The notes below the pieces were generated by a model that was not told the DNA's origin, did not search any database, and saw only the letters and a program-made list of their open reading frames with translations. From contig NZ_WQNH01000011.1 in assembly GCF_009812055.1 (NCBI RefSeq), positions 1 to 64,000 on the forward strand: 64,000 nucleotides of DNA, given 5' to 3'. The position numbers and the translations under genes are program-made. Of this stretch, positions 37,080 through 49,798 are shown one piece after another. Position 1 is the first letter of the stretch, and the number at the start of each line of letters is the position of its first letter. This DNA is from Chelativorans xinjiangensis. GTDB taxonomy: Bacteria; Pseudomonadota; Alphaproteobacteria; Rhizobiales; Rhizobiaceae.

Positions 37080-38186
37080 TCAAGCCGCGGCCTTCGCCCG
37101 CTCCGGAAACAGCTTCGCCAGCCCCTCCGCCGAGGCCTCCGCCACCCCGCGTTCAGTGATCAGCCCGGTCACCAGCCGCGATGGCGTCACATCGAAGGCC
37201 GGGTTGCCGGCGGGGGTCGCGTCGGGCGAGATGCGCACCTGCCGCGTCCTCCCGTCCTCGTCACGCCCCCACACCAGCGACACCTCGTCGCCCGAGCGTT
37301 CCTCGATGGGAATTTCCTTCACCCCGTCGCGTACCGTCCAGTCGATGGTCGGCGAAGGCAGGGCGACGTAGAAGGGCACGCCGTTGTCCTTCGCTGCGAG
37401 CGCCTTCAGGTAGGTGCCGATCTTGTTGCACACGTCGCCATGGGCGGTGGTGCGGTCTGTACCGACGATCACCAGGTCCACCATGCCCCTCTGCATCAGG
37501 TGACCGCCGGCATTGTCGACGATCAGCGTATGCGGCACGCCATGCCCCGCCATCTCCCAAGAGGTGAGATGCGCACCCTGGTTGCGCGGCCGCGTCTCGT
37601 CCACATAGACGTGGACGGGGATGTTCTCCTCCGTCGCCAGATAGATCGGCGAGGTGGCGGTGCCGTAGTCCACCGTCGCCAGCCAACCAGCGTTGCAGTG
37701 GGTGAGGATGTTCACCGGCTCACCCGGCTTCTTGGTCCTGGCAATCTCCTTGATGATCTTCATGCCGTGCCTGCCGATCGAGCGGTTCAAGTCCACGTCT
37801 TCATGGGCAATCTCCGCCGCGCGGCGATACGCCGCCTCTGCGCGTTCAGGCTCCGGCAGGGGCTTGAGCAGATTGCGCATCTCGTCCAGCGCCCAGCGCA
37901 GGTTGATGGCTGTGGGACGCGTCGCGTGCAGTTCTTCCCACGCGGCGTCGAGCGCCCCGTCGGACGGATCCTCGCGCATCCTGATCGCAACGCCGTATGC
38001 CGCCGTCACGCCGATCAGCGGCGCCCCGCGCACCCACATGTCGCGGATGGCGGTGGCGATGCCCGCGACGTCGCGCACGTTTTCCACGCGGAACTCGTGC
38101 GGCAGCCAGCGCTGGTCGATGAGGTCGACGGACCAGCCGTCCGCGTTCACCCAGATGGTACGGTAATGCTTGCCTGCGACTTTCAT
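37080..38186 (-). CDS. mtnA: S-methyl-5-thioribose-1-phosphate isomerase
   Basis: This enzyme converts methylthioribose-1-phosphate to methylthioribulose-1-phosphate. The 368 residues belong to the eIF2B-like isomerase family. The catalytic Cys is at 164 ([17 protein letters not shown]) and the catalytic Asp at 244 ([20 protein letters not shown]); the N-terminal block [13 protein letters not shown] is also present. It overlaps mtnK by four bases. Next to an aldolase-dehydrogenase fusion and a ribose-type importer, it is likely part of a methylthioribose or 5-deoxyribose route and not necessarily of full methionine salvage. Confidence 0.95.
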
Positions 38187-39469
38187 GACTGCCTCCCCAT
38201 CAAGGCGCTAGCGCGCCCTTCATCAAGCAGTTGCGCCAAGTGGTTGATCTCCGTGAGCGAGGCGATGTGGCGCCGGTTCACCGCGATGTGACGCCCGAGT
38301 TTCAGCGCCGCTGCCTCGCAGGTCGCCCTCATCCCCGTGTCCTCGATATCCTCGAAGTCGGCATTGTGGGCGAGGCCGAGGATGCGCCGGTGCATCTCCA
38401 CCCCGGCAAAGCCCAGCATGTCGGTCCAGATCTCGTGTAGCACATGGCCCAGCGCCTGCTCGGCCCCCAGCGCATCGCCCTGATCCTCATAGAGGCAACT
38501 AGGATACAGCATGCCCGCACGCTCCGTGCGCCACAGCCGGGAAAACTCCGCCCGGAAGACGGCCCACGTCTCCTCGATCACCTGCAATAGATAGGTGCGC
38601 ATTCCGGCACGGGAACCCCCTGCCTCGTGGCCTTTCTGCGAGAAGAAAGCCATCCAGTAGTTGGCGAGCAGCATGCCGACATCGAAGGCGATGGGGCCGT
38701 AGAAGGCAAACTCCGGGTCGATGACCCGCGTGTCCTTAGCCGTCACCATCACCGAGCCCGTGTGCAGGTCGCCGTGCACCAGCGTCTCGGCCTTGGCGGC
38801 GAAGAGATGCTTCATCCTCTGCGCCTCGACCTTGAGGTCGCGGTCAGCCCTCAGTTCCGCCACCACCGGCTCGAGCTCCGGCGTGTGCCGGTTCATGGGG
38901 GCGTCGAAATAGGGATCGGTGAAGACGAGGTTCTCGGTGATGTCGCAAAGCTCTGTGTTGTCGGCGAACAGCGCCAGGTCCGCCTTGCGTTCGCGCGTCT
39001 CCATGTGAAAGTCCGAGCCGCGGAAGAGCGTGCGCGCCATGAAGAGCCCGAGGTCCTCGGCGATCTTCGGAAGCTGTTCCCCCTTGATGAGCGCGCGCCG
39101 CAGGATGATGTGCGGCGACAGATACTCCATGACGATCAGCGCCTGGGCCTCATCGAAGTAAAAGACCGCCGGCACCGATCCCGGCGCCCGCTTTTCCTGC
39201 CGCGTCAGCGCGTGATACTCGAAGAAGGAGCGTTTCAGCGGCAGCGGCCAGCTGTCGCCGACGAGCCGCACATAGGGAAGCGCCTGTTTGACGACGACAC
39301 TGCCCGCCTCACCCTTGACGATGAAAACGAGATTGAGGTTGCCGTCGCCCACCTCGCGCACCTTCCAATGCTCCGGCGCCGCACCGACCCGCTCCGCCAC
39401 GGCGGGAAGCGCGCTCAGCCGCGGGGCCAGCGTCTCCACCGTCAACGCCTGAAACGCGTCTTCCTTCAT
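38183..39469 (-). CDS. mtnK: S-methyl-5-thioribose kinase
   Basis: This kinase phosphorylates methylthioribose at C1 with ATP. The 428 residues have a protein-kinase-like fold. The catalytic loop is [11 protein letters not shown] (His 232 onward) and the metal-binding DPE is at 251-253. The N-terminal nucleotide loop is [11 protein letters not shown]. It is the first gene of a two-gene operon with mtnA. A kinase, not phosphorylase MtnP, implies that free methylthioribose is the substrate, as would come from import or from MTA nucleosidase. Its promoter shares the palindrome at 39623-39647 with the divergent ABC operon. Confidence 0.95.
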
Positions 39470-39622
39470 TCTCTTGCCTCCTCCCGTACCCCCACCGATT
39501 GTGGAGCCTCAACAGTTCATCGTCTATCCGACCTTGCGCCTCTTGGCCGTGGATCCCCGGGTCAAGCCGAGGGCCTACCTCCCCCGCGCCTGCCGTCTCG
39601 GATCACGCTACCAACGCTCTGT

Positions 39623-39647
39623 CATTTGTCAATGATGTTGACAAATG
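39623..39647. promoter_or_regulatory. Palindromic operator with two divergent -35 elements (mtnK / ABC)
   Basis: CATTTGTCAA TGATG TTGACAAATG is a perfect 10-5-10 inverted repeat. Each arm contains TTGACA facing outward as a -35 hexamer. TAGCGT follows at 17 bases on the plus strand (39661) and at 16 bases on the minus strand, as a weak -10. A related palindrome with the shared core TTGACAAA lies at 46690-46707 before the SorC-type regulator gene, so the same regulator may bind both. Confidence 0.75.
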
Positions 39648-39683
39648 CTTGGCCTGTGCCTAGCGTCATTCTGGGAGGAAGTC

Positions 39684-41195
39684 ATGGCAGAGGACGCCAT
39701 TTTCCGCATTGCGGGTCTCGGCAAATCGTTCGGCCGCAACGAGGTGTTGCGCGGCATCTCGCTGGAATTGCGTGCCGGCGAGGTGACCGTGCTGATGGGC
39801 GCCAACGGCGCCGGCAAGTCCACGCTCGTCAAGATCATGAGCGGCATCCACCGTGCCGACAGCGGTTCCATGGCGCTGGGCGCCTCCCCCTTCGCGCCTT
39901 TGACACCCGCCGAGGCGATGCGCGCCGGCGTCGTCACCGTTCACCAGAACATCGATGACGGCGTGGTCGGCACGCTGGACGTCGCCACCAACCTCGTCCT
40001 CGACCGGCTCAACGGCGCCGGCCGTGGCACCTTCTTCAACCCCCGCCGCGTACGCCGCGAGGCGCGGGAGGTTGCAAGCCGCATGGGGCTCGCCATCGAC
40101 CTGTCCACCGATGTTACCGAGCTTCCGCTGGCCGACCGGCAGATGGTGGCCATCGCCCGCGCCATGGCGCACGAGCCGAAGGTGATGATCCTCGACGAGC
40201 CCACCTCGTCCTTGTCGAGCAACGAGGCCGAGCGCCTCTTCGCCCTTATCGAGCGCCTGCGCGCCCGCGGCGTCGCCATCCTCTACATCTCACACCGCAT
40301 GTCCGATATCCGCCGCGTGGCCGACCGCATCATATCCTTGCGCGACGGGCGCATCTCCGGCCTCTTCGAGGAAAAGCCGCTCGACTACGAGGGCGCGGTC
40401 AACGCCATGCTGGGGCAGAGCCTGGGGGCGAGCGGCGTCGCCTCGCAGTCGGCAACGCGGGCGATCTTCGCGGCAAGCGGTCTGCAGCTTGCCGAGGGCG
40501 CGCGACCGTTCTCGCTCGAACTCGGCGCCGGCGAGGTGGTGGCTGTCACCGGCCTCGTCGGCGTCGGCAAGACGCGGCTGGCCGAAACCCTCTTCGGCAT
40601 CCAGGCTCCGCTCGTCGGCGAAATGCACCTCGACGGCAGCCCCTACGCGCCGGCAACCCCCACTGAGGCCATCCGCCGCGGCGTCTTCCTCGTCGCCAAG
40701 GACCGCGCCAAGACCGGCATCGTGCCCGATTTCAACATCTACGAGAACATGAGCCTGCCCTTCTTGCCGCGCTTCTCGCATTTCGGCATGGCCAGGCGCC
40801 GGGCCGAGCGCGCCGCCGCGCGCCGCCAGATCGCCGACCTCAAGGTGGTCTGCCGCTCCGAACGCGACGATCTCGCCACCCTTTCGGGCGGCAACCAGCA
40901 GAAGGTGACGGTCGCGCGCTGGCTGTCGCAGTCGTCCCGAATGCTCATACTCGACGAACCCTTCCAGGGCGTCGACATCGCCGCCCGCCACGACATCGCG
41001 GCCAAACTGCGCGAAAGCGCCGCCAAGCGGGCGACGCTCCTGTTCCTGACGGAACTCGACGAGGCCTTGGAGACGGCAGACCGCATCCTCGTCATGTCCG
41101 AGCACACAATCGTCGGCGAGCATTTGAACCGGGACGTGGACATGGATCGCCTCCTGGCCGAGGTGGCGGGCAAGGGGCTTCAGGGTGCGGCGTGA
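39684..41195 (+). CDS. Ribose-type ABC transporter ATPase (RbsA-like)
   Basis: The 503-residue protein has the RbsA double ATPase layout. The first domain has Walker A GANGAGKST and a Walker B region ending LDEPTSSLSSNEAERLF. The second has GLVGVGKTRLAETL and signature LSGGNQQKVTVARWL. I chose ATG 39684, which follows GGGAGGAA. It powers uptake through the permease and binding protein encoded downstream. It is divergent from mtnK-mtnA across a 214-base region with the shared operator. Confidence 0.92.
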   Translation: MAEDAIFRIAGLGKSFGRNEVLRGISLELRAGEVTVLMGANGAGKSTLVKIMSGIHRADSGSMALGASPFAPLTPAEAMRAGVVTVHQNIDDGVVGTLDVATNLVLDRLNGAGRGTFFNPRRVRREAREVASRMGLAIDLSTDVTELPLADRQMVAIARAMAHEPKVMILDEPTSSLSSNEAERLFALIERLRARGVAILYISHRMSDIRRVADRIISLRDGRISGLFEEKPLDYEGAVNAMLGQSLGASGVASQSATRAIFAASGLQLAEGARPFSLELGAGEVVAVTGLVGVGKTRLAETLFGIQAPLVGEMHLDGSPYAPATPTEAIRRGVFLVAKDRAKTGIVPDFNIYENMSLPFLPRFSHFGMARRRAERAAARRQIADLKVVCRSERDDLATLSGGNQQKVTVARWLSQSSRMLILDEPFQGVDIAARHDIAAKLRESAAKRATLLFLTELDEALETADRILVMSEHTIVGEHLNRDVDMDRLLAEVAGKGLQGAA

Positions 41196-41216
41196 AGGAA
41201 GTGGAGAGTTCAACTC

Positions 41217-42278
41217 ATGGACAGTAACCTGGCCGAGAAACCGACGGCTGAAATGCATGAGACGACGCCCGCCCGTCCGCGCCTTCCGCTGCGCAACCTC
41301 ATCATTCGCTACGGCTTCCTGACCCTCCTTGCCGGCCTCATCGTCTTCTTCTCGCTGGCCACGCGCGGCTTCGCCTCGCCTCAAGCTGCGGTCTTCATTT
41401 TGCAGTCGGTCTCCATCACCGGTATCCTGGCGCTCGGTGTGACGGCCACCCTGGTCGTCGGCGGCTTCGACCTTTCCATCGGCTCCATCGCCACCTCCGC
41501 CATGATGGCAGCCGCCTATGTCATGGTGATTCTGGAGCAGAACGCCTTCGTTGCCGTCGTCGCCTGCCTCGCCATCGGCGCTTTCGTCGGCCTTATCAAC
41601 GGCCTCATCATCTGCTACATGCGCGTGCCGGACCTGCTTGCCACCCTGGGCATGATGTTCCTGCTCATCGGCCTGCAGCGCATTCCCACCGAGGGCCGCT
41701 CCATCGCCGCCGGCATGACCATGCCCGACGGCTCGACCGCCGAGGGCACCTTCAGCACCGCCTTCCTGGCGCTTGGCCGCCACCGCTTCGACTTCTTCAT
41801 CGAAAACCTGGTGCCGGCTGCGGTGGTGGTGCTCATCGTGCTCGCCGTCCTCATCTGGTTCTTCCTCGAATACACCCGCTTCGGCCGCATGATGTATGCC
41901 GTGGGCTCGAACGCGCGCGCCGCCGAGTTCGCCGGCGCACCGGTCAAGGCCTACAAGATCTGGGCCTATGTCATCTCCGGCGTCTTCGCGTCCATCGGCG
42001 GCATCCTCTTGGCCGCCCGCCTCGGCCGCGGCGACATCGCCTCGGGCAACAATCTTCTGCTCGACGCGGTCGCCGCCGCCCTCATCGGCTTCGCCGTCCT
42101 GGGCGCGGCCAAGCCAAACGCCTTCGGCACGGCCATCGGCGCGCTTTTCGTCGGCGTGCTCCTACAGGGCCTGACCATGATGAACGTGCCCTACTACACG
42201 CAGGATTTCGTCAAGGGGGCGGTGCTGGTCGTCGCGCTCGTATTCACTTTCGCACTGCTTGGCCGCAACGGCCGGTAG
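41217..42278 (+). CDS. Ribose-type ABC permease (RbsC-like)
   Basis: The 353-residue permease has about 8-10 membrane segments. The family motif IGAFVGLINGLIICYMRVPD and the C-terminal GIGALFVGVLLQG-type sequence (AIGALFVGVLLQGLTMMNVP) are visible. An insert of about 25 residues (GRSIAAGMTMPDGSTAEGTF) sits in the middle. It lies 21 bases after the ATPase gene. Ligand is inferred from linkage to mtnK/mtnA as methylthioribose or 5-deoxyribose. Confidence 0.92.
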   Translation: MDSNLAEKPTAEMHETTPARPRLPLRNLIIRYGFLTLLAGLIVFFSLATRGFASPQAAVFILQSVSITGILALGVTATLVVGGFDLSIGSIATSAMMAAAYVMVILEQNAFVAVVACLAIGAFVGLINGLIICYMRVPDLLATLGMMFLLIGLQRIPTEGRSIAAGMTMPDGSTAEGTFSTAFLALGRHRFDFFIENLVPAAVVVLIVLAVLIWFFLEYTRFGRMMYAVGSNARAAEFAGAPVKAYKIWAYVISGVFASIGGILLAARLGRGDIASGNNLLLDAVAAALIGFAVLGAAKPNAFGTAIGALFVGVLLQGLTMMNVPYYTQDFVKGAVLVVALVFTFALLGRNGR

Positions 42279-42312
42279 GCGGGACATCGGGAGGGTAAAA
42301 GTGGAGGAAAAC

Positions 42313-43368
42313 ATGAAATTCTCACGCAGACATCTGGGCAGGCTCGCCGCCGGCCTTCTGGGGGCAAGCATGCTGTGGCCGGCGGCCGCAGGCGCGCAGG
42401 ACATGCCCGCCCCCTTCGACAATCCGGGCGACGTGGAGATTGCGCTGGTGCGCTATCTGTCGACCGGCGATTTCTTCCAGGCCTATCTGTCGGGCGTCGA
42501 GGCCCAGGCCAAGGCGCTGGGCGTCAACCTGCGCGTCTTCGACAGCCGCCAGGACGCGGCCCTTCAGGCGGACATGGTGGACCAGGCGATCGCGCTTGGC
42601 GTCGACGGCATCGTCATCCAGCACGGCCTGACGGAATCCATGAAGGAAGCCGCGCAGCGCGCCGTGGACGCCGGCATCAAGGTCGTCGCCTTCGACGTCA
42701 ACGTGGAGAACGAGGCGATCCCGCAGATCGAGCAGTCCGACCGCGACCTTGCCCGCCTGGCGCTCGAACAGGCGATCGAGGACAACGGCGAGGAGTGGAA
42801 GGCCGGCTACGTCTACGTCGCCGGTATCGCGCCGCTCGACCGGCGCAACGAGACCTGGGTAGAGTTCAAGGAGAAATATCCGGGCATCGAGGAAGTCGCG
42901 CAGTTCGGCACGCTCGACAACCCGATCGCCAACTCGGTCGCCAACCAGGCACGCTCGGTCGTCACCGCCAACCCGGACATTGAGGTCATGTTCGCGCCCT
43001 ATGACGAGTTCGCCAAGGGCGTGAAGATCGCCGTCGACGAGGCGGGGCTTGCCGACGGCATCAAGATCTACTCCGCCGACATCTCGACGGCCGACATCTC
43101 CGCCATGCGCGAGCCCGGCAGCGCCTGGGCCGCGACGGCCGCCACCAACCCGGCCGTCGTCGGCGAGGTCTCGGTACGCGCGCTCGCCATGCTCTTGGCC
43201 GGCGAGGACCCCGGCCAGAACGTCATCGTCCCGCCGACGCTGATCACCCAGACCCAGCTCAACGACGAGGACATCAAGAACATGGAGGAGCTGTCGCAGA
43301 AGCTGCCGCAGTTCGCCCATGCCGACGTCGCGGTGCCGGAGTGGATGCCGCTGCCGCCGCGCGAGTAG
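42313..43368 (+). CDS. Ribose-type periplasmic binding protein (RbsB-like)
   Basis: The 351 residues have a signal peptide (MKFSRRHLGRLAAGLLGASM, cut near AGAQD) and a peripla_BP_4 fold. It shows the repeated pattern ALGVDGIVIQHGLTESMKEA, with the pocket loop VVAFDVNVENEAIPQIEQSD. An excellent GTGGAGGAAA precedes ATG 42313. It completes the ATPase-permease-binding protein operon. A repeat element (43405-43560) follows the stop codon. Confidence 0.92.
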   Translation: MKFSRRHLGRLAAGLLGASMLWPAAAGAQDMPAPFDNPGDVEIALVRYLSTGDFFQAYLSGVEAQAKALGVNLRVFDSRQDAALQADMVDQAIALGVDGIVIQHGLTESMKEAAQRAVDAGIKVVAFDVNVENEAIPQIEQSDRDLARLALEQAIEDNGEEWKAGYVYVAGIAPLDRRNETWVEFKEKYPGIEEVAQFGTLDNPIANSVANQARSVVTANPDIEVMFAPYDEFAKGVKIAVDEAGLADGIKIYSADISTADISAMREPGSAWAATAATNPAVVGEVSVRALAMLLAGEDPGQNVIVPPTLITQTQLNDEDIKNMEELSQKLPQFAHADVAVPEWMPLPPRE

Positions 43369-43404
43369 GCAGTTCAGGTCGGGACCGAGAAGGGCCTTGT
43401 CAGA

Positions 43405-43560
43405 CGAGATTAGGTCGGTTCCCCACCGCGCGTCATTCCGGCCGAACGAAGTGAGGGCCGGGATCCATTCCGTGACGGAGACGTTTCGGAATGGGTCCCG
43501 GACAGCCCTCGCCCTACGGGCTCCGGCTTCCAGGATGACGTCCCGCCTGATCCGGCCTCA
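43405..43560. repeat. Second copy of the long palindromic element
   Basis: The core 43440-43530 is a reverse-oriented relative of the element at 3067-3235. It includes CCGAACGAAGTGAGGGCCGG and a GGAATGGGTCCCGGACA segment, and flanking arms around GAGATTAGGTCGG are partly preserved. The arms no longer form a perfect inverted repeat. It sits between two convergent operons (the ABC transporter and the aldolase). Confidence 0.75.
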
Positions 43561-43572
43561 ATTCATCCAGCG

Positions 43573-45627
43573 CTACCGCAGCGCGGCCGCGATATTCCCG
43601 CCGTCCACCGTCGTCACATCCGCTGTCGTGCGCTCAGCCAGCGCCTGGTGCAGGAAGGCCTGCGCCACGTCCTCGGCACGCACTTCAAGGCCAAGCAGGT
43701 TGCCGCCCATATAGTCCTTCTCCGACACCCCACGCGCCTTGGCGCGGCTGGCGATCATCTCGTCGGTCAACAGCCCGGAGCGAATGCGGTCGGCATTGAC
43801 CGCGTTGGAGCGGATGCCGTCCGGCCCGTAGTCGAGGGCGTATTGGCGGGAGAGGAACAGGGTGGCGGCCTTGGGCAGGCCGTAGGCGCCGAAATTGGCG
43901 CCGGGGTTCACCGCCTGCTTGGACGTGTTGAAGAGGAGCACGCCGCCGGTCTTCTGCATCTGGAAGATTCGCACGGCGTTCTTCGCCACACTCTGGTGGG
44001 CGAAGAAGTTGAGCTCGAAGCTCCTGCGCAAGGTGGCGTCGTCGAGTTCGCCGATCCTGCCCTGCCAGGCCGCCCCTGCGTTCGAAATGGCGATGTCGAC
44101 ACCGCCATAGACCTCCACCGCGCGGTCGAAGGCGGCGCGCACGGAGGCGGGGTCCGTCACGTCGGCGCCGACGCCGACCGCGGCGTTGCCCACCTCCCTG
44201 GCGACCGCCTCGGCCTTCCCTGCATCGAGATCGACCACCACCACATGCGCGCCCTGGGCGGCGAAGAGCCTGGCCGTCGCGGTGCCGATGGCGCCGGCGC
44301 CGCCGGTGATCAGCATCACCTGGCCGGACAGCGCCTTCGGCTTGTTGGCGGCGAGCTTGGCCTGCTCCAGCGACCAGTATTCGAGTTCGAACAGGTCAGA
44401 AAGGGCGAGCGGATGGAAGGCGCCGACGGTCTCCGCCCCGGTCACGGCCTCGACCAGCATCTCGCCGCAATCGGCCGCGACTTTCGCCTCCTTTAGGCTG
44501 CGCCCGTGGCCGAAGAGGCCCAGGCCCCGGACGAGGGTAAGCCGCGGCATGGGGTCGAGCATGGTGCGCTTGACGTCGTCGCGCGCATCGTTGGTCTCGA
44601 AATAATCGCGGTAGCGGGCGGAGAACTCCGTCACCTTCGCGCGGATCGTCTCGCCGTACTCCTCGAGCTTACCCGCCTCCGGCGCCGGCAGCACCATGGG
44701 GCCGGTCTTGATGCGGATGGAAAGATCGGGCGTGGAGACGCCGCGCGTGGCAAGCTCCTCCGCCGTCTTAGCGTTCACATAGTCGAGGATCTTCGGCGAG
44801 GTGCGGAAATCCGAAACCATGCGGCCGAAGCGCTCCTCCCCCTCTGGGATAGCGATGGCGCCGCGCAGATAGGGCCCGATCTCAGCCGGCTTGGCGAGCG
44901 CTGTGGGCAGCGCGACGGATACGAAGGGCTTCTTGCCCTTCCGCGCCACGCAATCCTCGGCCATGGTCACGAACTCGATCATCAGGTCGTAGGCCTCCTT
45001 CGCGCCTTGGGCGAAGGTGAAGATGCCGTGCTTGTCGAGGATGAAGCCTTCCATGGAAGGGTCGGCGTCATAGATGTCGGCAGCCGCCTTGGCGAGATCG
45101 AAGCCGGGCTTGATGTAGGGCACGAAGCCGAGCCGCTTGCCGAAGACCTCGCGGCACAAGGGCTCACTGTCCTCCTGGTCGACCAGTGCCAGAATGGCGG
45201 TGGAATGCGTGTGGTCGACGAATTTGTGCGGCAGGAAGGCGTGCAGCAGCGTCTCGATGGAGGGGTTGGGAGCGTAGGCGTCGATGAGGTTGGCGCGCTG
45301 CATGGCCACCATATCCTCATCGGAAAGCGCGTCGAGCTTGCGGGCGGCCAGAAGCGCATCCATCTTCACCGCGGGCAGGCCGGCAGGCTCGATGACGCCC
45401 ATATCCCAGCCACTGCCCTTGACGCAAAGCACTTCCCATTCCTGGCCGAGAATGTCCTTCGCCCTGGTCTTCAGCGAGGTGTTGCCGCCGCCGTGCAGCA
45501 CCAGCCGCGGCTCGCCCCCGAGCAGGCGTGTCGTGTAGACCCTGAGTGCCAAGTCGCGGCCAACGCCCTTCGCGGCATAGTCCTCGACCAGCTTTTCGGC
45601 ATGGCTGCTATTCCAGAGGTTCTGCAT
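43573..45627 (-). CDS. Bifunctional class II aldolase / short-chain dehydrogenase
   Basis: The 684-residue fusion has an N-terminal class II aldolase of the FucA/RhaD type (about 1-420). The zinc ligands are His 139 and 141 (HTHS) and His 200 (DKHGIF). The C-terminal SDR domain (about 433-684) has TGGAGAIGTATARLF and the catalytic Tyr 582 and Lys 586 (AYGLPKAATL). Fusions of this type act in rhamnose catabolism (RhaD), but no rhamnose isomerase or kinase is nearby. With mtnK and mtnA present, cleavage of methylthioribulose-1-phosphate to dihydroxyacetone phosphate and methylthioacetaldehyde, then conversion of the aldehyde by the dehydrogenase, is a strong inference (the DHAP shunt). Confidence 0.9.
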   Translation of the reverse strand: MQNLWNSSHAEKLVEDYAAKGVGRDLALRVYTTRLLGGEPRLVLHGGGNTSLKTRAKDILGQEWEVLCVKGSGWDMGVIEPAGLPAVKMDALLAARKLDALSDEDMVAMQRANLIDAYAPNPSIETLLHAFLPHKFVDHTHSTAILALVDQEDSEPLCREVFGKRLGFVPYIKPGFDLAKAAADIYDADPSMEGFILDKHGIFTFAQGAKEAYDLMIEFVTMAEDCVARKGKKPFVSVALPTALAKPAEIGPYLRGAIAIPEGEERFGRMVSDFRTSPKILDYVNAKTAEELATRGVSTPDLSIRIKTGPMVLPAPEAGKLEEYGETIRAKVTEFSARYRDYFETNDARDDVKRTMLDPMPRLTLVRGLGLFGHGRSLKEAKVAADCGEMLVEAVTGAETVGAFHPLALSDLFELEYWSLEQAKLAANKPKALSGQVMLITGGAGAIGTATARLFAAQGAHVVVVDLDAGKAEAVAREVGNAAVGVGADVTDPASVRAAFDRAVEVYGGVDIAISNAGAAWQGRIGELDDATLRRSFELNFFAHQSVAKNAVRIFQMQKTGGVLLFNTSKQAVNPGANFGAYGLPKAATLFLSRQYALDYGPDGIRSNAVNADRIRSGLLTDEMIASRAKARGVSEKDYMGGNLLGLEVRAEDVAQAFLHQALAERTTADVTTVDGGNIAAALR

Positions 45628-45674
45628 CGTCTTCCCATATATCGTTTGTCAGGTTGCGGCTGACGGCCGGGTCG

Positions 45675-46658
45675 TCACGCGGTGGCTTTGGCCGGTTCGT
45701 GCTCATCCGCCCTTGCGCCGGTGTGCTGGATGAGGCGCGCGGCCATGCGCGAGGTCAGCACCAGATGGGTGAAGAAGCGCCCGTTGATCGCCGCCAGAAG
45801 CGGCTCGAACTTCTCGTCCTCCTGCACCACCATGAGCCGGCGCGGGATGGCGCGGATGGCGTCGAAATCGGCCGAGATCATGCGGCGGTTGTAGTCGCAG
45901 TCGAGCCACGCGCCTTCGGCGTCGATGATCTGTCCGGCGATGACGCCGGTCGCCCCTTGTTTCTTGAGCCGGTGAAGCTCCTCAAGGCCGAGCGCACCGC
46001 ATTTGATGACGTGGCTGTCCTCATCGAGCGTGCCGACGGTGAACAGCGCCAGATCGCAGGAGCTGATACCGTCGAGCTGCTCGCGGACGACCGGCTCCTC
46101 ACGCAAAGCGCGCGCCAGCTCTTCCGTGCTCAGGACCAGCGGCGCGTAGAAATTGAGGCCGCGCGCGTTGAGCCGGCGGGCGATCTCCATGGTGCACTGG
46201 TCGGGGCGGTAGGAATAGGGCGAGCCGAGATTGCCGCACAGTTCCACCACCGTGACGCCCTGGCGATCCGCATAGGCCATGGCGTCGGCGATGGCATAGA
46301 CCGTGCGTCCCCAGGCAACGCCGACACGCTCGTTGTTCCTCACCATCTCCAGGAACACGCTCGCCGCCAGCGTCGGGATCTCGGCGGCGGGGTCCTGCGT
46401 CAGCCCCTCCTCGCCCACCAGCCACACCGTCTCCAGCCCCAGCGCGTCCTCGAGACGCCGCGCCATCATGTCGGTGCGGAAAAGCTGCGTGGAGGTGGAG
46501 ATGTTGACGATGCCCGCCTCGCGCGCCCGGCGCAGGTAGAGCGCCACGGAGGCGCGCGAGATATTCAGCCGCTGCGCCACTTCGTCCTGGCGCAGGCCAT
46601 GCGTATAATAGAGCCACGCGGCCTTGTGGACGATCTGATCTGCCGGACGATATGCCAT
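45675..46658 (-). CDS. SorC/DeoR-type sugar-responsive regulator
   Basis: The 327-residue regulator has an N-terminal helix-turn-helix (about 20-60; LRQDEVAQRLNISRASVALY) and a C-terminal sugar-phosphate-sensing domain of the SorC type. The pattern AVSAVGTLDEDSH-like segment reads CDLALFTVGTLDEDSHVIKC. I chose ATG 46658. It lies 47 bases upstream of the aldolase gene on the same strand, so they form an operon. A perfect palindrome overlapping the -35 element (46690-46707) fits autoregulation. A related palindrome lies between mtnK and the ABC operon. Confidence 0.9.
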   Translation of the reverse strand: MAYRPADQIVHKAAWLYYTHGLRQDEVAQRLNISRASVALYLRRAREAGIVNISTSTQLFRTDMMARRLEDALGLETVWLVGEEGLTQDPAAEIPTLAASVFLEMVRNNERVGVAWGRTVYAIADAMAYADRQGVTVVELCGNLGSPYSYRPDQCTMEIARRLNARGLNFYAPLVLSTEELARALREEPVVREQLDGISSCDLALFTVGTLDEDSHVIKCGALGLEELHRLKKQGATGVIAGQIIDAEGAWLDCDYNRRMISADFDAIRAIPRRLMVVQEDEKFEPLLAAINGRFFTHLVLTSRMAARLIQHTGARADEHEPAKATA

Positions 46659-46689
46659 CGGTCTCCTCCGGCTAGACATTATTCATGTG

Positions 46690-46707
46690 CATTGACAAAA
46701 GTCAATG
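46690..46707. promoter_or_regulatory. Palindromic operator overlapping the SorC-type gene promoter
   Basis: CATTGAC AAAA GTCAATG is a perfect 7-4-7 inverted repeat sharing TTGACAAA with the palindrome at 39623-39647. On the minus strand it supplies TTGACT as -35, followed at 16 bases by AATAAT as -10, a good sigma-70 promoter. The site ends 32 bases before the regulator's start codon. Confidence 0.7.
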
Positions 46708-47353: not shown

Positions 47354-48808
47354 CTACCGATGCGCCCCCGCCATCTGCCTGAGCTCCTCGACCGTCCGCA
47401 CCCGCTTGCGCGCCGCGCCCTGCCAATCGCGCGTGGCGACTTTCGAATTGGCGAGCCGCTCCGTCGCAGCGGGCACCGCGTCGGCATATTGCGGCAGCCA
47501 GGCGGCCTGCGCGACGACCATCTCGTCCACCATCGCCCACACCTCCTCGGGCGTGCAGACGGCGCCGACCAGCGGGTCGTGCAGCATGGCGAGCTTCAGG
47601 AGGTCGATGTCGCCCGTCATCGCCGCTTCGACGGCCATGCGCTGGACGGAGATCGAGACCGAGCAGGTGGCGGCGCAGGCGAGCGGCAGGGTGATGCCCT
47701 CGACCATGTTGATGCCGAAACGGTCCACGAAGCCGGGGCTTTCGATGATGGCGTCCTCGGGCAGGTTCGTGATGATACCGCCGTTCTTCACGTTGAAGTG
47801 GCCGCGATAGACGCGCCCCGTTTCCAGCGCCTCGATGATGTGGCTGGCGTGCTCGGTGGTGCGCTTGTGCTCCGTGAGCGGCTTTCCGGCCTCTTCGAGG
47901 AATTTTGGAAAGTCGGTCTCGAACCAGTTGCGGCGCTCGGTGCAGTAGCGCAGGTAGCCGCCGGTCTCGCCATGGATCCACTCGCTCATGTCGATCCAGT
48001 TGCCGATCTCGTCCGGGCGCTTGCGATACCAGGGCAGGTATTCGGAAAGGTGTCCGTTGCTCTCGGTGGAATAGACGCCGAAGCGCTTCAGCACGTCGAT
48101 CCGGAGCTTCTCCTGCTTCGAATAGACGGGATGGCGCTCGAAGGCGGCGATCAACTCCTCCTTCCCGATCCTGCGCCCGTTGACACGCAGGTCGATGTAC
48201 CAGGTCTGGTGGTTGATGCCGCTGCAGACGTAGTCGAGTTCCTCGTCCATCACACCCAGGACCTGGGCGATCTGATGGGCGCCGTGCTGCACGCCGTGGC
48301 ACAGGCCCACCGTGTTGACGCCGCCATACTTCAGCGCTGCCCAGGTGTTCATGGCCATGGGGTTGGCGTAGTTGAGGAACAGCGCCCCCTCCTCCGCCAC
48401 CTCGCTGATGTCCTTGCAGAAGTCGAGGATGACGGGGATGTTGCGCTGGCCGTACATGATGCCGCCGGCGCAAAGCGTGTCGCCCACGCACTGGTCGACG
48501 CCATATTTGAGCGGGATGTCGACGTCCGTGGCGAAGGCTTCCAGCCCGCCGACGCGCACACAGCTCATGATGTAACGGGCGCCCTCCAGGGCCTTGCGGC
48601 GGTCGGTGGTGGCCGTCACCCTAGCAGGCAGGCCGTTTACCGCGACGATCTTCTCGATGATCTGGCGGATCATGTCGAGATTGCGCTCGTTGATGTCCGT
48701 CAGGGCGATCTCGATGTCGCTGAACTCAGGGACCTTGAAGAGGTCCGAAACAAGCGTCTTGGTGAAGCCGACCGAGCCGGCGCCGATGATAGCCACCTTG
48801 AATGTCAT
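47354..48808 (-). CDS. GH4 family alpha-galactosidase-like enzyme (second copy)
   Basis: The 484-residue NAD+- and metal-dependent glycosidase has the dinucleotide motif VAIIGAGSVGFTKTLVSDLF and the blocks FLNYANPMAMNTWAALKY, VGLCHGVQHGAHQIA (metal-ligand Cys) and SGINHQTWYIDL. It shares the fold with the first copy at 27823-29193 but is clearly diverged. Resemblance is to MelA/AgaL. A dedicated AraC regulator is divergently encoded at 48911. I chose ATG 48808; frames extending further upstream are antisense to the AraC gene. Confidence 0.9.
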   Translation of the reverse strand: MTFKVAIIGAGSVGFTKTLVSDLFKVPEFSDIEIALTDINERNLDMIRQIIEKIVAVNGLPARVTATTDRRKALEGARYIMSCVRVGGLEAFATDVDIPLKYGVDQCVGDTLCAGGIMYGQRNIPVILDFCKDISEVAEEGALFLNYANPMAMNTWAALKYGGVNTVGLCHGVQHGAHQIAQVLGVMDEELDYVCSGINHQTWYIDLRVNGRRIGKEELIAAFERHPVYSKQEKLRIDVLKRFGVYSTESNGHLSEYLPWYRKRPDEIGNWIDMSEWIHGETGGYLRYCTERRNWFETDFPKFLEEAGKPLTEHKRTTEHASHIIEALETGRVYRGHFNVKNGGIITNLPEDAIIESPGFVDRFGINMVEGITLPLACAATCSVSISVQRMAVEAAMTGDIDLLKLAMLHDPLVGAVCTPEEVWAMVDEMVVAQAAWLPQYADAVPAATERLANSKVATRDWQGAARKRVRTVEELRQMAGAHR

Positions 48809-48910: not shown

Positions 48911-49798
48911 GTGCTTTCGAAGCTGATCGAGCATGGCCACGGGATGCGCCGCGTCGCGCCGCCGAAGGGCGGGGCAGGGCTTTTCTGCATGGCCAGCGGC
49001 GCCGGCTACGAGTTGCGCGTCAACGAGGTCTATTCCTGGGACGGCTTGCAACGCGGCGACGTGCCGTTTGTGCTTATCCAGCACACGATCGCCGGCGAAG
49101 GCCGGCTCGACTACGAGGACGTGCGGCATGTGCTGTCGCCGGGCGAGACGATGTTGCTCACCTTTCCCCATGCCAACCGCTACTGGCTGGAGCGGGGGAA
49201 GAGCTGGGAGTATTTCTGGATCATCCTTTCCGGGCGCGAGGCGCTGCGGCTGGCCGGCGCCATCCTGGCAGCGAAGGGCCCGGTACTGAGGCCCGCGCAG
49301 CCGGCAGCGGACAGGCTTGCAGGCGCCTGCCTGGCGCTGCTTTCCGGCGCGGCAGACGTGCCTGGCGCCGTATCCGCTGCCGCCTACGGAGCCATCACAG
49401 CGCTCTACGACGAGGCCTTCGAGGCCACCGCGGAAGCGGCGGATCTGCCGGCGCCGGTACTGCGGGCACAGCGTTTCGTCGAGGACAACCTGGCGCGGCT
49501 GACGGATGTCGGCATGCTGGCGCGCGCGGCGGGCTTGAGCCGGGCGCATTTCGTGCGGCTGTTCACCGCCGAGGTGGGGCGGCCGCCCTCGGAGTACGTG
49601 TTCGAGAAGCGGATGGAGCGGGCCATGCGCATGCTGCTTGCCACCGATGCACCGATCGGTGCTATAGCCAGGGCCTGCGGCTTCGCCGACGCCAACTACT
49701 TTTCCAAGGCCTTCCGGCGCGCCAGGGGCTGCTCGCCGGGCGCGTTTCGCAATGCCGGCCGCACGGGGCTGCTGACGACCATCGACGGCGAGTGGTAG
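48911..49798 (+). CDS. AraC family regulator of the second GH4 gene
   Basis: The 295-residue regulator has an N-terminal cupin domain (about 20-110; AGEGRLDYEDVRHVLSPGET) and a C-terminal AraC helix-turn-helix pair (about 195-285; LARAAGLSRAHFVRLFTAEV and IARACGFADANYFSKAFRRA). It starts at GTG 48911, with no better ATG upstream. It is divergent from the GH4 gene at 47354-48808, which it presumably controls. An epimerase-like gene follows 34 bases on. Confidence 0.88.
   Translation: MLSKLIEHGHGMRRVAPPKGGAGLFCMASGAGYELRVNEVYSWDGLQRGDVPFVLIQHTIAGEGRLDYEDVRHVLSPGETMLLTFPHANRYWLERGKSWEYFWIILSGREALRLAGAILAAKGPVLRPAQPAADRLAGACLALLSGAADVPGAVSAAAYGAITALYDEAFEATAEAADLPAPVLRAQRFVEDNLARLTDVGMLARAAGLSRAHFVRLFTAEVGRPPSEYVFEKRMERAMRMLLATDAPIGAIARACGFADANYFSKAFRRARGCSPGAFRNAGRTGLLTTIDGEW

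Follow-up and report, generated by a model that had tools for sequence, protein, structure and literature searches.

In a stretch of 64,000 nucleotides from contig NZ_WQNH01000011.1 of Chelativorans xinjiangensis (hereafter the window), the genes mtnK and mtnA are divergent from a sugar importer of the ATP-binding cassette (ABC) type, and next to them a class II aldolase fused to a short-chain dehydrogenase/reductase (SDR) is encoded in an operon with a SorC-type regulator. Both arrangements had been put forward in the initial annotation of the window; the first is confirmed by the gene coordinates and family scores and the second by the NF006192 and PF04198 scores (Table 1). On the basis of sequence comparisons it is proposed, with a probability of roughly 0.78, that the cluster encodes an importer-fed dihydroxyacetone phosphate (DHAP) shunt for external methylthioribose or 5-deoxyribose, in which the aldolase-SDR fusion would replace the aldolase Ald2.

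According to this proposal, the ribose-type ABC importer would bring in 5-methylthioribose and/or 5-deoxyribose, MtnK would phosphorylate the imported sugar at C1 and MtnA would isomerise the sugar phosphate to the corresponding ribulose-1-phosphate. The aldolase half of the fusion would then cleave this product into DHAP, which would enter glycolysis, and (methylthio)acetaldehyde or acetaldehyde. The released aldehyde would be handled by the fused NAD-type SDR half, most likely by reduction, oxidation being possible; oxidation of lactaldehyde is the reaction of the rhamnose fusions. The SorC-type regulator would control its own operon and the divergent mtnK and importer promoters through a shared operator.

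Association of the fusion with mtn genes

The distribution of the fusion was analyzed in 397 genomes drawn from the order; the family model NF006192 exceeded its cut-off in 49 of them, with 50 listed loci. Forty-eight of these loci were examined (47 stretches and the window), two loci at contig ends, in genomes G047 and G297, being left out, and exclusion of the partial proteins L106 and L107 gave a set of 46 full-length fusions. For 33 of the 46, the window fusion among them, the distance to mtnK, mtnP or mtnA does not exceed 9 kb; the neighbour is mtnK in 21 cases (the window counted), mtnP in 9 and mtnA alone in 3. The gap between the alignments of the fusion and mtnA is as short as 0 to 35 bases at L074, L075, L077, L078, L079, L081, L086, L091, L100 and L103, and at L078 mtnK, mtnA and the fusion overlap by 4 bases at both joints. 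The phosphorylase-type clusters present the order mtnP-(apt)-mtnA-fusion. Since the linkage is found in kinase- and in phosphorylase-type clusters, the fusion accompanies MtnA irrespective of the enzyme that supplies the latter.

The cluster of the window is also found in Chelativorans intermedius, Nitratireductor aquimarinus, several Mesorhizobium, Rhizobium lusitanum, R. setariae and Phyllobacterium. The pair mtnP and mtnA stands beside the fusion in Rhodospirillales records, in a metagenome-assembled genome (MAG) of the Longimicrobiales (Gemmatimonadota) and in several Pelagibacteraceae records, while a beta-proteobacterial MAG shows the order mtnK-mtnA-fusion. In a tree of the family, the mtn-linked fusions are spread through most of it.

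In five of the Pelagibacteraceae (SAR11) records (L246, L256, L257, L258 and L269), the fusion and mtnA lie on opposite strands, 10 to 208 bases apart, and mtnP is also present in four of the five. A DHAP shunt in marine oligotrophs is possible from this linkage.

Exchange of the fusion with a FucA/Ald2-like aldolase

The mtnK model was over its cut-off at 110 loci in 103 of the 397 genomes, and the neighbourhoods of 109 of these loci, all except that of the window, were taken. Forty-four of them, in which mtnA and a binding protein with 60% identity or more to that of the window are also present, constitute the importer set. A single-domain class II aldolase was called FucA-like when it was at least 40% identical to one of three proteins, from L114, L115 and L118. 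Within 8 kb, the fusion was present at 15 loci of the importer set, the FucA-like aldolase at 21, both at none and neither at 8, one of the latter being L069, where the fusion lies just past 8 kb. A gene for a SorC-type regulator is nearby at 38 of the 44 loci. When all 109 mtnK loci were classified, mtnA was accompanied by the fusion at 18, by a single-domain aldolase at 35 (weak matches below 40% included) and by neither aldolase at 20; the fusion without mtnA was found once, a weak aldolase match without mtnA twice, and none of these at the remaining 33. The L118 aldolase is nearest to Escherichia coli FucA (E 1.8e-60) and also matches the structure 6btd (E 2.2e-47), which we take to be the 5-deoxyribulose-phosphate aldolase of Bacillus thuringiensis. 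The same importer, kinase and isomerase are combined with either of two dissimilar aldolases, which is most simply explained if the fusion and the Ald2-like aldolase carry out the same step.

Structure and active-site residues of the fusion

The model of the fusion, a protein of 684 residues, has a mean predicted local distance difference test score (pLDDT) of 90.5, and its fold matches are the class II aldolase domain of 3m4r and many SDRs. In the aldolase half, residues E125, H139, H141 and H200, presumably the acid/base and metal ligands by their position and by analogy with FucA chemistry, are kept in 72 of 72 mtn-linked fusions. The same number keeps D466, S569, Y582 and K586 in the SDR half, which we take to be the SDR triad and the acidic residue of the NAD type. 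Unlinked fusions present the same residues, save for Thr in place of S569 in 5 of 52 and one unread letter. Hence, the active-site positions examined do not separate mtn-linked from unlinked fusions, nor do they tell substrates apart.

A palindrome at the two promoter regions

An operator-like perfect palindrome, the TTGACA arms of which may also function as -35 boxes, is located in the divergent interval between mtnK and the importer. A degenerate copy just upstream of the regulator-fusion operon is the only other match with up to three mismatches in the window, 0.05 being expected in all. A shorter core pattern with up to two mismatches recovered the first site only, and a chance match to it is not rare (39 of 100 shuffles). 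In the host genome, 11 sites at three mismatches were counted in one orientation versus 7 for the reversed control, and therefore the weight of the second site comes from its place. Among relatives, the best match in the mtnK/importer interval had at most four mismatches at 27 of 27 loci (window included), and upstream of the regulator a match was found with at most five mismatches in 29 of 29 and with at most four in 27 of 29; the control, 300-bp pieces taken at random from the same loci and able to include true sites, gave 107 of 2900. As the TTGAC core also resembles -35 boxes, the recurrence of the palindrome is supporting, not decisive, for a putative shared operator.

Weighing of the proposal

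Several observations weigh against an importer-fed shunt that uses the fusion. Thirteen of the 46 full-length fusions have no mtn gene within 9 kb, some of them being near contig ends. In a second set, consisting of 78 full-length fusions from the best 80 named loci, with many short contigs and some genomes shared with the order draw, 39 fusions were mtn-linked and 39 were not. In the tree, a clade of 15 rows (Agrobacterium, Rhizobium, Ensifer and others) lacks mtn genes in its vicinity and keeps the active-site residues mentioned above, save for Thr at S569 in 3 of the 15. At the sole annotated locus of this clade (L092:8135-15787) the fusion is accompanied by an FGGY kinase, a separate SDR, a SorC-type regulator and an iron-type alcohol dehydrogenase, and the clade probably serves another sugar. 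Because it lies outside mtn neighbourhoods, membership of the family is by itself no proof of the substrate and does not fix it. Furthermore, both aldolases occur together at one named locus, Phyllobacterium myrsinacearum L244; the binding protein of the window is 37-38% identical to its closest solved relative, 4ry8; nine operator-like sites exist in the host genome besides the two of the cluster; and the second of these two, with its three mismatches, overlaps promoter-like elements.

The nature of the sugar concerns two versions of the proposal that compete with each other and not with the shunt itself. In a search of the PDB by sequence, the binding protein matched 4ry8 with an E value of 1.9e-65, the next being 3.5e-37, and its AlphaFold model (mean pLDDT 88.4) also had 4ry8 as the best fold match (E 2.9e-33, 38% identity). 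The title of that entry is 5-methylthioribose transporter solute binding protein TLET_1677, from Thermotoga lettingae; among solved binding proteins it is the nearest by sequence and fold, and the specificity predicted for the window's importer is taken from it. Uptake of methylthioribose by the importer would fit the substrate of the kinase, and the title of the closest solved structure argues in the same direction against a cluster devoted mainly to 5-deoxyribose as a carbon source, and not to methylthioribose as a source of sulfur or carbon. That version is the more doubtful of the two, with an appreciable chance all the same: in E. coli the DHAP shunt allows growth on 5-deoxyribose but does not salvage the sulfur of methylthioadenosine (MTA) (PMC10986504), and the kinase DrdK of B. 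thuringiensis accepts both sugars (PMC6079011).

The other fates that the MtnA product could have were searched for in the host genome (5.69 Mb, 118 contigs, 99.61% complete), with family models that gave matches in control genomes. The absence of mtnB, mtnC and mtnD, stated for the cluster in the initial annotation, holds across the searched genome: no match was obtained for the acireductone dioxygenase (ARD/MtnD), and the best scores for MtnB and MtnC were 29.9 and 24.5 bits, under cut-offs of 137.05 and 128.1. Canonical methionine salvage was rejected on these grounds. Ald2 elsewhere in the genome was also rejected, no close Ald2-like aldolase being present (best match to the L118 protein, 28% identity, E 3.6e-7). 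The fusion is the only aldolase-type candidate found in the genome for the MtnA product. The MTA phosphorylase (MtnP) model gave host-genome matches of only 76.9 and 73.4 bits (cut-off 274.85), and no protein of the genome was over the cut-off for MtnN, the nucleosidase of MTA and S-adenosylhomocysteine (SAH). As neither MtnN nor MtnP is over cut-off, an external source of methylthioribose is favoured rather than an endogenous supply.

It could be argued that mtnKA feeds a salvage route through unrecognised later enzymes or a RuBisCO-like protein encoded elsewhere, the fusion serving another sugar. The fact that mtnKA and the fusion form separate operons in the window, a further point against the shunt, agrees with such an arrangement, as does the unlinked clade, which demonstrates that members of the family can function in other clusters. 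The host genome has three genes of the RuBisCO family, none over the MtnW cut-off of 513.6 (148.1, 136 and 93.9 bits). One encodes a true RuBisCO large subunit (L287, contig C86, 811.1 bits versus a cut-off of 438), and the other two, about 12 kb apart on contig C62, encode RuBisCO-like proteins (L288 and L289) that may act on the same intermediate, which also counts against the shunt; a RuBisCO-like protein of the DeepYkr type isomerises this intermediate in Rhodopseudomonas palustris (PMC5893883). However, the two C62 proteins score nearest to OiaX (439.8 and 392.9 bits, under the cut-off of 700, versus the 148.1 and 136 bits for MtnW), and their scores are unlike that of the RuBisCO-like protein of related mtn loci, whose OiaX score is 83.6 bits. 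This together with the lack of MtnB, MtnC and MtnD over cut-off, the position of the fusion directly after mtnA in many relatives and its exchange with the Ald2-like aldolase makes such a route unlikely.

Very improbable is that the fusion is an aldolase for L-rhamnulose-1-phosphate, or another 6-deoxyketose phosphate, with lactaldehyde dehydrogenase activity, located beside mtnKA by chance: its whole architecture is common to RhaD fusions and it is 34-35% identical to the genome's own RhaD fusion, but it scores 484.3 bits with the RhaD model TIGR02632 (RhaD_aldol-ADH), under the cut-off of 567.75, and 1093.6 bits with NF006192 (PRK08324.1-6, bifunctional aldolase/SDR), far over the cut-off of 639, it has Glu at position 125 where the two RhaD-type proteins compared (n=2 only) have Asp, the fusions are mtn-linked in 33 of 46 cases, and the genome holds a separate rhamnose aldolase-isomerase-importer locus. 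A role on rhamnulose-1-phosphate was rejected by these curated cut-offs and by that locus, which is on contig C38 (L061:4753-12016) and not near the window fusion. There, a second fusion that passes TIGR02632 at 1082.8 bits is found beside a rhizobial-type L-rhamnose isomerase (rhaI, 860.1 bits versus a cut-off of 646.75), a RhaS-type binding protein (473.9 versus 342.25) and a UlaR/DeoR-type regulator under its cut-off, and no rhamnulose kinase was identified among the ten proteins scanned. None of the genome's 11 operator-like sites is on C38. The initial annotation had considered that rhamnose genes under the same regulator would speak against a shunt; those found belong to a separate locus with another regulator and without such a site.

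Relation to known systems

The DHAP shunt consists of phosphorylation or phosphorolysis, isomerisation and aldol cleavage (PMC5893883, PMC10986504, PMC12632272, PMC6079011). In Rhodospirillum rubrum, R. palustris and some E. coli it uses MtnK or MtnP, MtnA and Ald2, and follows the same logic of kinase or phosphorylase, isomerase and class II aldolase as the window cluster; in E. coli the operon includes a putative transporter gene, the regulator gene mtnR adjoining it (PMC5893883, PMC10986504, PMC12632272). In the window, by contrast, a fusion of an SDR with a distantly related aldolase takes the place of Ald2, and an ABC importer with a methylthioribose-type binding protein and a SorC-type regulator within the fusion operon are present. 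The MtnK and MtnA known from the shunt are present in the window, while no close match to the single-domain FucA-like Ald2/DrdA was found in the genome and the fusion stands in its place; the cluster is therefore classed as a putative shunt-like variant and not as a plain member. The drdK-drdI-drdA cluster of B. thuringiensis likewise encodes a kinase, an isomerase and a class II aldolase, and some 5-deoxyribose clusters include sugar transporter genes; the aldolase described there is fuculose-1-phosphate-aldolase-like and, in the available text, a fused SDR is not mentioned, whereas that of the window is a fusion (PMC6079011). RhaD fusions (TIGR02632) have the same domain order and length, with aldolase and dehydrogenase in one protein, and differ by their subfamily, their neighbours and the Asp at position 125. 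The ABC importer type for 5-methylthioribose, with mtrB of Pectobacterium versatile as an example, has already been named in print (PMC7843439).

No literature linking the fusion or its family to methylthioribose, 5-deoxyribose, mtnA or the shunt was found among the papers listed by a search that mostly did not reach subscription papers. The DHAP shunt and importer-bearing clusters are already known, and no description of the fused form was found in the literature searched. The catabolic route for external sugar read from the cluster in the initial annotation is largely right, pathways with transporter genes being already known (PMC6079011), and its placement "in a rhizobium" is loose: as the closest named fusion, with 89% identity, is that of Chelativorans intermedius, the host is a Phyllobacteriaceae-like bacterium and no rhizobium sensu stricto.

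The proposal offers a testable function for a widespread enzyme family that is annotated, as on plasmid p3 of Pararhizobium qamdonense, only as "bifunctional aldolase/short-chain dehydrogenase". The aldehyde step of the shunt is assigned to a "putative alcohol dehydrogenase" in R. palustris (PMC5893883), and general alcohol dehydrogenases are named for it in E. coli (PMC10986504); the fusion is a candidate for the step so assigned in R. palustris. The proposal further suggests that the sugar waste of S-adenosylmethionine (SAM) metabolism is put to use by soil, plant-associated and marine bacteria more widely than Ald2 clusters alone would show.

A possible further exit in related loci

In some related loci a split transketolase/DXS-like pair and a RuBisCO-like protein are encoded within the mtnKA operon or beside the importer (L151:8040-13500, L062:1-3700, L110:2101-5269 and L286:17820-20052), the nearest solved structure to the RuBisCO-like protein of L110 being 3qfw (E 6.6e-72). 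With L069 dropped, the transketolase pair was present at 7 of 7 importer-set loci without a nearby aldolase versus 8 of 36 with one (Fisher p 2e-4), a comparison between related loci that are not independent samples. The RuBisCO-like gene was found at 6 of the 7, the stretch of the remaining one, L109, ending before its position. The split transketolase and the RuBisCO-like protein are thus a possible further fate of methylthioribulose-1-phosphate. Five of the seven genomes (G067, G172, G115, G040 and G080) carry a fusion of the family elsewhere, which the tree places with the mtn-linked type in two of them and in the unlinked clade in three, and the reading as an alternative exit is therefore weakened. 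The cluster of the window has neither split transketolase nor RuBisCO-like genes.

A broader picture, in which many Alphaproteobacteria including SAR11 would run the shunt with the fusion, its SDR half taking the aldehyde step in one protein, and in which related loci would use the RuBisCO-like protein and split transketolase as a further exit, is tentative, and we would place it somewhat short of an even chance.

The plasmid p3 of P. qamdonense (L286), typed as conjugative, carries the whole cluster with the RuBisCO-like protein and the split transketolase.

Organization of the cluster

The features of the cluster are collected in Table 1. The nearest solved structures to MtnK are 2pyw (E 2.1e-99) and then the methylthioribose kinase 2olc (E 1.3e-80). 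The ATPase matched models of monosaccharide-importer ATPases with scores under their cut-offs, and in a profile search the N-terminus of the regulator gave weak matches of the helix-turn-helix type beside its PF04198 domain. Upstream ribosome-binding sites and the starts of relatives suggest revised starts for the ATPase (39684), the binding protein (about 42313) and the regulator (46658). The three-gene importer, divergent from mtnK, is convergent with the regulator-fusion pair, and no terminator or promoter was found between the convergent genes in 43300-43640.

Table 1. Features of the mtnKA, importer and aldolase-SDR fusion cluster (positions in the window)
Feature	Position	Strand	Evidence or remark
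mtnA, (methylthio)ribose-1-phosphate isomerase	37080..38186	-	TIGR00512 421.9 bits, cut-off 279; 4-bp overlap with mtnK
mtnK, methylthioribose kinase	38183..39469	-	TIGR01767 511.4 bits, cut-off 275
Operator-like perfect palindrome, TTTGTCAA-N5-TTGACAAA	39625..39645		mtnK/importer divergent interval; sole exact match in the genome
ABC importer ATPase, two ABC domains, sugar type	39684..41195	+	ABC_tran, 2 stretches
ABC importer permease	41217..42278	+	BPD_transp_2 141.8 bits
Periplasmic binding protein, predicted methylthioribose type	42313..43368	+	4ry8 best PDB match by sequence and fold
Aldolase-SDR fusion, whole	43573-45627	-	NF006192 1093.6 bits, cut-off 639
Fusion, C-terminal SDR half, about residues 431-684, stop codon included	43573..44337	-	adh_short 122.4 bits, adh_short_C2 124 bits
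Fusion, N-terminal class II aldolase half, about residues 1-420	44368..45627	-	Aldolase_II 78.6 bits at 31-224
SorC/LsrR-type regulator	45675..46658	-	Sugar-bind PF04198 170.2 bits; upstream of and co-directional with the fusion
Degenerate copy of the palindrome, 3 mismatches	46679..46699		just upstream of the regulator-fusion operon, promoter region

Near the regulator end of the cluster, a gene for a family 4 glycosyl hydrolase occupies positions 47354-48808, and an AraC-type regulator is encoded divergently from it at 48911-49798.

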